Part shown: one piece after another, positions 29,366 to 32,901 of the stretch
Layout: every line of letters starts with the position of its first letter
Position numbering within the stretch: position 1 is the stretch's first letter
Assembly (NCBI GenBank): GCA_025612375.1
Contig: JAAXKN010000045.1
Location: 1 to 32,901, forward strand
DNA: 32,901 nt
Source of the DNA: Ignavibacteria bacterium
Lineage (GTDB): Bacteria; Bacteroidota; Ignavibacteria; Ignavibacteriales; SURF-24
Direction: 5' to 3'
The notes under the pieces: model-generated
What the model saw: only the letters and a program-made list of their open reading frames with translations
Database searches by the model: none
What the model was told of the DNA's origin: nothing
Made by a program: the position numbers and the translations under genes

Positions 29366-30352
29366 ATGGCAGAAATTGAATTATTGAACCAGATGAGACA
29401 GAAAGCTGCCCAGAGAAAGAAGACTATCGTTCTTCCTGAATCGCACGACGACCGCGTGCTGCAGGCAGCAGAAATTCTGGTAAAGGAAAAGATTGCAAAT
29501 GTAATTACACTTGGAAATGAGGATAAGATTAGAGAAGATGCTAAAAGACTGGGTGTAGATCTTCAGGGCATTAGGATAATTGATCCTGAAAAATCGGAAA
29601 AACTGAGCGATTTTGCTAACATCTTCTACAACATGCGCAAGCAGAGGGGAAAAGAGATTCCAATTGAGAAAGCCCGCGACACCATAAAAAGGGATATCTT
29701 CTTCGGCGCAATGATGGTTAAAGAAGGCCTGGCCGACGGATCTGTTTCAGGTTCAACAGCTACAACAGCCGACGTTATGAGAGCTTCAATTATGGTTGTT
29801 GGAATGCCTCAGGGAATTTCAATTGTTTCAAGCTTTTTCCTCATGGTATTCCCGGAAAAAGTTTTCAGCTTTGCCGACTGCGCCGTAAACCCGAATCCGA
29901 ACGCGGCTCAGCTTGCAGACATAGCAATTTCAACAGCTGAAAACCACAAAAAGCTTACAGGCGAAGAGCCTTACGTTGCAATGCTTTCTTTCTCGACCAA
30001 GGGAAGCGCAGATCACGAACTGGTTGACAAGGTACGTGAAGCTACAAAGATCGCACAGGAAAAACGCCCCGACCTTAACATAGACGGAGAGCTTCAGTTT
30101 GACGCCGCAATTGTAAACGGCATAGGACAGAAAAAAGCCCCGGGCAGCAAGGTCGCCGGACGCGCAAACGTTCTCGTATTCCCGGATCTTCAGGCAGGAA
30201 ATATAGGCTACAAGATAGCCCAGCGCCTGGGTGGTGCCGAAGCCATTGGCCCCATCAGCCAGGGACTTTCAAAGCCATTTTTTGACCTCAGCCGCGGATG
30301 CAGCCCAAGCGACATCGTAAACACAGCAGCCATTGCATGCCTTATGGCATAA
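29366..30352 (+). CDS. pta: Phosphate acetyltransferase
   Basis: A 328-residue enzyme that interconverts acetyl-CoA and acetyl phosphate, linking acetate metabolism to ATP production with acetate kinase. It is the short, single-domain form (about 330 residues), without the N-terminal DRTGG/P-loop region of E. coli Pta. Conserved blocks: KTIVLPESHDDRVLQAAEIL at the start, GLADGSVSGSTATTADVMRA (about 126-145), ANVLVFPDLQAGNIGYKIAQRLG and the terminal GPISQGLSKPFFDLSRGCS. No ackA is adjacent in this window, so acetate kinase must be encoded elsewhere if the pair is used. The start has no ribosome site. A terminator follows. Confidence 0.95.
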   Translation: MAEIELLNQMRQKAAQRKKTIVLPESHDDRVLQAAEILVKEKIANVITLGNEDKIREDAKRLGVDLQGIRIIDPEKSEKLSDFANIFYNMRKQRGKEIPIEKARDTIKRDIFFGAMMVKEGLADGSVSGSTATTADVMRASIMVVGMPQGISIVSSFFLMVFPEKVFSFADCAVNPNPNAAQLADIAISTAENHKKLTGEEPYVAMLSFSTKGSADHELVDKVREATKIAQEKRPDLNIDGELQFDAAIVNGIGQKKAPGSKVAGRANVLVFPDLQAGNIGYKIAQRLGGAEAIGPISQGLSKPFFDLSRGCSPSDIVNTAAIACLMA

Positions 30353-30388
30353 GACAGGGATAACTTCCCAAAGCATAAAAGTTAATTA

Positions 30389-30430
30389 AAAGTCCTGGAC
30401 AGCATAGCTTGAAAGGGCTTTTTGTTTTTT
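30389..30430 (+). terminator. Rho-independent terminator after pta
   Basis: The stem AAAGTCC / GGGCTTT (one G-U pair, extended by an A-U pair) closes on a loop of about 17 bases and is followed by TTTGTTTTTT. It marks the right end of the conserved housekeeping part of the window. Confidence 0.75.
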
Positions 30431-31140
30431 TATAAGCACCCTCAGATTTTCTCATCCTGAATTCTCCCAATGTCTTTATATTATTAACGTGTTCAGAAAT
30501 GGAAAATATAAATTAGTATTATTAAAATTTAAAATATTTCTTGACAGGAGCAATTAGTATAATTATTTTTAGCATCAAGAATTTTAAAAGATACCTCTAG
30601 AAAAATTAAAATTAATCCGCATTATTATTAGATAATCTATCTCTATTTCTATTCTCAAACCTTTCAAACGAAAGTGTTTTCTAAACTGACTATCTTGCCT
30701 GCAAAGGCATAGAATAAATTTACTTCAACAAAATAGTTTAAACAAGTTTCTGCAAAAGACCAATAGTATCCAATACACATTAGTATTATACGTTAGAGAT
30801 GTCCATTTGGGGAGCTATTACTCTTTGAGATTTTACTATTATAAAGCAAAAATCTGACCCACGGGTAGATTTTTTTTTTTTTTTTTTTTTTTTTTTGGAA
30901 AATTTTTCCGAAAACGCTTATCGTCACCATATATATATATATAAGAAAAAATATTTTTCACATAAAAGTCGAACTGAACAGACCCATTGACCTGTAAATC
31001 AGGGGAATAAGTTTTCAATTTAGTTAAATTCAAGTTGATTTATTTATCTAAATAAAGAAACATTTCTAAAGTACAAATAAGCTTCTTGAACGGAATTATT
31101 GGTGTTGGTTTTTGTAATTGCGATCAACTAGAGGAATAAA
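30431..31140. other. AT-rich gene-free region with homopolymer tract
   Basis: About 700 bases without a credible gene. The sequence is visibly richer in A and T than the rest of the window. It includes a run of 27 T (30870-30896), an inverted repeat GGAAAA/TTTTCC just after it, and an (AT)n run (30930-30943). A minus-strand frame of 64 codons crosses the T-run and is mostly Lys; it is not called. At the right end GAGGAA (31132-31137) precedes an ATG at 31141. No tRNA or structured RNA was recognised. Confidence 0.6.
30870..30896. repeat. 27-base poly-T homopolymer
   Basis: An uninterrupted run of 27 T bases. Such a long tract is rare in bacterial genomes and prone to slippage; it may be biologically variable or an assembly artefact. 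It is followed after about 34 bases by an (AT)n stretch. Confidence 0.9.
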
Positions 31141-31769
31141 ATGCTCAGTACCGGAAAACCTTATGCCACAGTTGTTCTCTTATTATCATTTAATACTCTT
31201 GACTTGGATTACAGGGGGAAATGGAAGAGTCCAAAGCCTCAGGGTAACTATTTTTACCAGTTCCAGTTTTGCAGTCCTCATCAGGATTTCTCAAAACATT
31301 TGGCAAAAACCTGTGATCTACAAACGATGCCGGCAATGCATGGAATGAAAGAATCATGAGTAATACCACTGAATACTTTGGACAAGTAAGCAGTTTTTTC
31401 TTTCAGACTCACTACACTGATATGAAGCAGGCAAAGATACTCCTCCATACATTTCAAAAACTAAAGATGGCGGAAAGAACTGGATTTGGGATTGACTTAG
31501 TGGAAAGGAATTAAGGGGGGGGGACAGATTGGGTGGTAGTACATACTTCAGACAGAAGAAAGAACTTGGGACATCAGAAGAACAATACTACGAGCCAATG
31601 AGGTTTATGTTATTGTAAGAGGAAAGATCAGTACACTACTGGATGAAGAGAAAAGAGCCGTGAATATACTCTCCAGTTTTCCGGAGAAGGACTCTCAAGC
31701 GGCATATACATTTATCAGGTCATTTACCAGTGGAAATTGTTCGCTGGGAAGATGATAATTCTCAAATAA
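31141..31769 (+). pseudogene. Decayed secreted BNR/Ycf48-like protein with T9SS sorting domain
   Basis: A broken gene read across frames. It begins with a ribosome site GAGGAATAAA and ATG 31141. The first frame gives a hydrophobic VVLLLSF stretch and WKSPKPQGNYF, typical of the start of Ycf48-like repeats. Frame shift to STNDAGNAWNE (31322-31354), then another to ISKTKDGGKNWIW (31459-31497): both are BNR/Asp-box motifs. Near the end, ANEVYVIVRGKISTLLDEEKRA changes frame to EYTLQFSGEGLSSGIYIYQ and ends FAGKMIILK-stop (31767-31769). This tail is the type A T9SS C-terminal sorting domain. At the last shift GCCGTGAA looks like GCCGGTGAA with one G lost. An intact product would have been exported and attached to the cell surface. 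Confidence 0.8.
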
Positions 31770-31787
31770 ACAAAGTGAGGTAAAGTA

Positions 31788-32852
31788 ATGCAAAAACTTT
31801 CTATTCAGTTACTTCAAAAGGTTTCTCTATGCTTTCTATTGTTTTTATTGTTTTTCAGTTATTCAATTTTTGCGCAATCGAAAGTATATTCTGAAGCTCC
31901 AGTTATTTTTGAAAATGGTGTAAAAAAATCAACTCAAATTACAGTTCATTTCAAATATCCTATTTTTTCAGCTGCTAAAGGGGAAAAAGAGGCGTTTATG
32001 TCGAACAGCTCACTTCTTTATCCTAATTTAATAAAATACTTCAAGCGACTGGAAGACAAATATGGTAAAATTAAGTTCAATAAGGCGATCCCATCTGCTG
32101 TTTGGGGTGAATTTGAAACTCAAAATAAAGCAGCAGGAAATGGGATAAAAGTAAAAGATATGTCACAGTTGCTGTTTATTAAATTCAATCAGTTTGTCCC
32201 AATCGACTCCATTATTGCAGAATTGTCCACAATGGATGAAGTATTATACGTACACCAGCCAATTCAGGCTACAAATCTTGCAGAGCCAAATGATACATAC
32301 TATCAGGCGAACCAATGGAATCTGACAAAAATAAACGCTTCCAAGGCATGGGATATTTCAAAGGGAGATGGAAACGTAAATGTTGGAATTATTGATCCTG
32401 AAGGAAATGCCTACAAGTATCATTCTGATTTACAAAATAAGGTTGTAACGAATAACGAGATTTTTGGCTCTCATGCAACAGAATGTGCGGGAGTGGTAGG
32501 TGCTTCAACTAATAACAATGGAGTAGGAATTGCTAGTCTTGGATGGGATTTAAAAATAAAATCCTTTGATGACTCAGTGGATGATTTAGTATTACTTATT
32601 ATGAATGCAGCTAATGATTCATCGATTAAGGTGATAAATTTAAGCTGGTGTACATTGGGTACACAACAGGTGGAAGATCCGTCTTGTGATGTCATTACAA
32701 AATACCATTGCTTTAGTTATTTCAATTGTAGTTACCCAGAGATTGAAAATGCGATTAACTATGCAGTTGTTACTATGAAAAAAGTTGTTGTGGCTGCCTC
32801 CGGGAACGAAAATCCCAATGAATATTTGGGCAATGCGGAATGGTGTATATAG
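31788..32852 (+). pseudogene. Subtilisin-like (S8) peptidase truncated by an insertion
   Basis: A 354-residue open frame encoding the front of a secreted serine protease. It has a signal peptide (LLFLLFFSYSIFAQ, to residue 30), a propeptide-like region (about 50-160), then the S8 catalytic domain opening QWNLTKINASKAWDI. The catalytic Asp is D203 in VGIIDPEG, the His is H229 in GSHATECAGVVGA (with Glu replacing the usual second His), and the oxyanion Asn is N340 in VVAASGN. The block with the catalytic Ser (G-T-S-M) is missing: the frame leaves homology after Trp352 and stops in the terminal sequence of an insertion element. GTGAGG precedes the ATG. The product cannot be active as written. 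Confidence 0.85.
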
Positions 32853-32901
32853 TTCCCCCCAAAAACTGGACAAAAATATGGAATAATTTAAGGTGAAAAA
32901 A
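32844..32901. mobile_element. Left terminus of an IS3-family-like insertion sequence
   Basis: Starting at TGT (32844) the sequence reads TGTATATAGTTCCCCCCAAA and goes on to AACTGGACAAAAATATGG. TGTA...CCCCCAAAAA..TGGACA is the usual look of IS3-family terminal inverted repeats. It begins exactly where the peptidase reading frame loses homology and supplies its TAG stop. The window ends 58 bases in, so no transposase is visible; the family is judged only from the end sequence. Confidence 0.65.

Follow-up and report, generated by a model that had tools for sequence, protein, structure and literature searches.

What is encoded between the phosphotransacetylase gene (pta), which ends at position 30352, and a subtilase gene that starts at 31788 in this Ignavibacteria genome? 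The window, that is, the entire analyzed stretch of 32,901 nucleotides, constitutes contig 45 of a draft assembly of 5.23 Mb in 140 contigs. The rest of it is coding: of its first 30400 bases, 28206 belong to 24 open frames with lengths of 100 aa or more. The interval between the two genes contains no open frame that has a usual start and reaches 80 residues. The original prediction interpreted positions 31141-31769 of the plus strand as the fossil of a BNR-type protein exported by a type IX secretion system (T9SS). The analysis described here supports this interpretation: the collinear landmarks, frameshifts, stops and a large deletion make us confident that the 629 bp segment is a pseudogene of a secreted, BNR/Ycf48-like protein with a T9SS tail, which has lost its middle and in which the reading frames are broken.

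Anatomy of the relict

The relict begins with an ATG at 31141, followed in the same frame by an open stretch (31141-31262) that encodes a leader-like segment and a W-x-x-PKPQGN N-terminus and aligns with the N-termini of six homologs. In these alignments, KWKSPKPQGN of the relict resembles the corresponding segments of intact homologs (NWEWLNPKPQGN, WFWQNPKPQGN). Five of the six homologs, all from other genomes in the order, place the first frame change at approximately 31250-31275; the exception is L101, which places it at 31317. A stop codon at 31314-31316 directly precedes, in the same frame, the first Asp-box (STNDAGNAWNE, second frame, 31308-31355). The second frame change falls in 31373-31457, and the third frame contains a very clear second Asp-box (TKDGGKNWIW, 31448-31495), after which comes a stop at 31493-31495. 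Three-frame translation thus recovers both motifs exactly where they had been predicted, TNDAGNAWNE from 31320 and TKDGGKNWIW, in another frame, from 31460.

To score the repeated Asp-boxes (S/T-x-D-x-G-x-x-W), we used a matrix built from 117 boxes of 13 intact homologs and compared the results with 300 dinucleotide shuffles. Two boxes stand above chance: the first scores 7.7 bits, a value reached by 3 of the 300 shuffles, and the second scores 18.2 bits, reached by none. A possible third, worn box (HTSDRRKNLG, 31533-31580), which is a 73% DNA repeat of the second one over 22 nt, is doubtful (4.9 bits; 11 of 300 shuffles).

From 31600 to 31769, the relict corresponds to the C-terminal domain (CTD) of a T9SS type A protein, of which only the second half is represented, and reads through the LSSGIYIYQ...KMIILK ending to a stop at 31767-31769, as originally reported. 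The third frame change lies within 31650-31677, where it is placed with 10 of the 13 homologs; this agrees with the frameshift that had been attributed to the loss of a single G near 31660, although the affected base cannot be pinpointed from the alignments. In general, the exact positions of the shifts vary from homolog to homolog, and stops occur in all three plus frames of the relict. In the 788 bases upstream, which were compared with the 13 homologs on both strands, the scores (28-48) are at the level of controls from elsewhere, suggesting that this sequence contains no further piece of the gene. The 30300-32901 region has no Rfam match at gathering scores, and one 54-residue piece of the relict has no match among phage records.

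Homologs and the support for common origin

A search of the genome with the joined pieces of the relict (limit E 10) gave 11 matches in seven genes besides the relict itself. The best of these has an E-value of 9.7e-5, and the best matches of the other genes are between 0.006 and 0.2; because only one paralog falls under E 0.001, the case for the remaining ones rests on frameshift-tolerant alignments. Each of the seven genes has an uninterrupted frame of 440-745 residues that encodes multiple Asp-boxes and ends in a T9SS-type tail, in contrast to the relict, which is frameshifted and lacks the middle. In particular, L048 (717 aa) and L051 (741 aa) share with it the leader-like start, the Asp-box blades and the T9SS CTD, and their tails have the TKKM...LK or IK ending. 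Across the order, 49 of the 116 genomes, including this one, contain matches at E 0.001, and every match listed, apart from the relict's own pieces, is without an internal stop. Six of these homologs from other genomes, with open frames of 703-826 residues, were aligned to the relict along with the seven paralogs. Sequence identity between the relict and its homologs is 31-43% in the alignments of the N-terminal part and 23-40% in the order-wide search. Close parallels among the homologs from other genomes are L096 (703 aa, about 32% identical over the N-terminal part) and L098 (741 aa, about 43%), both intact, in which the N-terminus including W-x-x-P-x-P-x-G, the first two blades and the CTD are collinear with the relict.

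A direct ortholog was not found at the DNA level in 58 relatives, only two of which contain short matching pieces (81 bases at 73% identity, at the end of the CTD, in G004, and 30 bases at 90% in G032). A contig scan of genomes with the joined N-terminal part identified 40 stretches that fit the pattern, none of which was confirmed. Given that no ortholog was found, the shape of the intact gene is deduced from the paralogs.

Frameshift-aware comparison bears out the predicted homology. We performed frameshift-tolerant local alignment of the N-terminal part (31100-31510) and the C-terminal part (31490-31780) with the 13 intact homologs, using 40 shuffles per homolog. The N-terminal part scores 61-106 versus shuffle maxima of 38-52, so that all 13 homologs exceed all 40 shuffles. 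For the C-terminal part, with scores of 33-85 versus shuffle maxima of 39-49, the same is true of 12 of the 13 homologs, 11 of which align on the CTD, whereas L100 aligns on an Asp-box; L050 is the sole homolog that does not exceed its shuffles, and L097 is marginal (47 versus 45). When 31050-31790 as a whole was compared with the seven own-genome homologs, the scores were 66-81, versus a maximum of 46 in 15 shuffles each.

These results bear directly on the trivial explanation that non-coding DNA resembles a few short motifs by chance. The low scores of single frames with the curated profiles fit that explanation, and most of the single-frame pieces have no relevant match. It is contradicted, however, not only by the shuffles but also by real DNA, with 60 window segments per part and four homologs per part reaching at most 57, compared to 70-106 for the relict, and by five unrelated proteins, which score 26-37 against the relict. 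Furthermore, landmarks of several kinds occur in the correct order, and we consider the probability of a chance resemblance to be negligible.

The curated profiles identify the families that the pieces of the relict resemble, with all scores under the cut-offs: PF14870 (PSII_BNR, Ycf48) gives 20.7 bits (E 2.8e-4; cut-off 27) for the joined N-terminal part, PF18962 (Por_Secre_tail) 12.8 bits (cut-off 27) and TIGR04183 13.2 bits for the single-frame tail. Such values are as expected for a decayed copy. Mending the frame does not bring the tail up to the TIGR04183 cut-off of 23, the joined sequence scoring 12.7 bits. By contrast, a CTD profile built from nine of the 30 CTD loci fetched from this genome detects the tail with E-values of 7e-6 in one frame and 4e-9 when joined, the best of 600 shuffled frames being 0.73. 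The T9SS type A ending, which had been called clean, is real but partial: the N-terminal half of the sorting domain, with the NPFNP stretch, is absent from the relict, and this loss, as part of the missing middle, partly accounts for the low TIGR04183 score.

The missing middle and the alternatives to a pseudogene

The N-terminal part of the relict matches residues up to 126 of the six homologs from other genomes, and the C-terminal part matches their tails. Four of these homologs (L096, L098, L099 and L101) are collinear with the relict at both ends, the N-terminal match ending at residue 107-118 and the C-terminal match beginning at residue 649-679. Only about 115 bases separate the two matches in the window, compared to 535-560 residues, or approximately 1.6 kb, in the homologs, which places a large internal deletion at 31487-31599. 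The original prediction missed both this deletion and the doubtful third Asp-box.

The missing middle argues against simple read errors as the source of the broken frames: for a single intact frame to be restored, the middle would have to be supplied in addition to the mended shifts. More generally, an assembly or sequencing artefact, such as a misjoin across repeats or homopolymer errors, with the gene intact in the cell, appears to be quite unlikely. The window's two longest homopolymers are indeed close by, an intergenic T27 (30870-30896) that ends about 245 bases before the relict and a G9 (31515-31523) inside it, and about 1.1 kb beyond the relict the contig terminates in a repeat. Nevertheless, the frame changes are placed away from these homopolymers, long intact frames extend across the rest of the window, and 535 residues cannot vanish by homopolymer error. 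In addition, the relict is single-copy in the genome, so that there is no repeat of its own DNA to invite a misjoin. For the same reason, a silent cassette for gene conversion was rejected, the relict DNA having no second copy in the genome.

The same tracts raise the possibility of a phase-variable surface protein gene that is switched by slippage in G9 or T27, given the location of G9 within a gene for a surface-type protein, with T27 upstream, in an AT-rich stretch. This is, in our view, very improbable. Three stops, one per frame, at 31493, 31498 and 31512, precede the G tract, further shifts are present on both sides of it, and the middle is missing; because of the stops and the shifts, no length of the G tract yields one frame.

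The relict thus combines homology to intact genes with a disrupted frame and missing parts, and a fossil is the best reading because the leader-like start, W-x-x-P-x-P-Q-G-N, the Asp-boxes and the CTD tail are all collinear with the intact homologs. Under this interpretation, the ancestral gene would have encoded a secreted, BNR/Ycf48-like protein of the beta-propeller type, with a Sec leader at the start, a number of Asp-box blades and, at the end, a T9SS type A CTD that, judging from the intact homologs and from what is known of T9SS, would have directed its passage through the outer membrane. A deletion of approximately 1.6 kb would have removed the middle of the copy, with most of the blades and the N-terminal half of the sorting domain, and the remainder would have gathered about three frameshifts plus stops; both this order of events and the loss of expression are what we infer. 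Judged by its sequence, the relict can hardly make an exported protein.

Type IX secretion and the surroundings of the relict

The relict had been taken as direct evidence that the organism has, or had, a T9SS. The genes of such a system are indeed present, as the rest of the genome demonstrates far better than the relict. SprA is encoded over the cut-off in a single open frame of 2360 residues (contig 3); three C25-peptidase domains, of the family that includes PorU along with other proteases, were detected; and 20 of the 31 PorV-family (NF033709) matches are over the curated cut-off. On contig 12, some 1.2 kb separates the best C25 domain from the best PorV match. At least 150 TIGR04183 sorting domains are over the cut-off, none of them with an internal stop (150 of the 231 candidates scored). 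By these sequence matches, the T9SS genes are in place in this organism. With 20 matches over the cut-off, L189-L191 among them, the PorV family, a T9SS-associated outer membrane family, shows a large expansion in this genome.

Two further observations concern other loci of the system. On contig 17 (31891-32637; L104 and L105), the similarity of a 362-residue frame to SprA is confined to positions 859-954 and 999-1191, with 45 and 75.5 bits, below the cut-off, and the frame is either an SprA fragment or a short relative. Three of the 150 T9SS sorting domains are in open frames of just 114-135 residues, on contig 4 (1459-1686), contig 63 (13131-13358) and contig 30 (46866-47093); these are possibly further cargo remnants, cuts at contig edges or very short cargo proteins.

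Downstream of the relict and outside it, the 354 aa frame on the plus strand at 31788-32852 is a stub of a subtilase gene that covers only positions 42-156 of the 288 in PF00082 (49-156 in a second search). The frame stops 49 bases before the end of the contig, inside a 55-base repeat (32847-32901), which cuts the gene before its S8 domain is complete. The reverse complement of this terminal sequence is found, without a difference, at the beginning of contig 3; the overlap looks like a repeat in the assembly graph and is probably the end of a mobile element, which, by its look, may be of the IS3 type. The other half of the subtilase was not found among the eight S8 matches in the genome, the seven besides the stub being complete or almost complete domains within long frames.

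By its phosphotransacetylase, the nearest named relative of this bacterium is the Ignavibacteria MAG bin-C14 (94%), with MAGs labelled Melioribacter, at 75-81%, among the next matches. Four genomes of the family, G001 among them, carry other genes in the 5.9-6.3 kb after pta. No BNR or CTD gene was found there: of the 138 frames with 60 aa or more in these stretches, none resembles the 13 homologs (best blastp E-value, 0.25) or the CTD profile, which indicates that the relict sits in a variable stretch. It is conceivable, albeit unlikely, that the region following pta acts as a hot spot in which genes for secreted proteins arrive and then break, the propeller gene by deletion and frameshifts and the subtilase by a mobile element whose terminus coincides with that of the contig; the long T and G tracts would then reflect slippage. 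The two losses may also share one cause, for example, relaxed selection on a single lost surface function.

The predicted loss of a cargo gene holds for the relict copy only, since seven intact genes of the same kind remain in the genome. With the T9SS genes in place and many other cargo genes intact, the decay of this copy is best viewed as routine turnover in a large paralogous family. The titles and opening lines of abstracts covered by a literature search mention no T9SS pseudogenes in Ignavibacteria. The relict, an ordinary pseudogene of little significance by itself, represents a dead member of a large family of BNR proteins with T9SS tails; it illustrates that careful reading of all three frames can recover a pseudogene that the curated profiles leave below their cut-offs.
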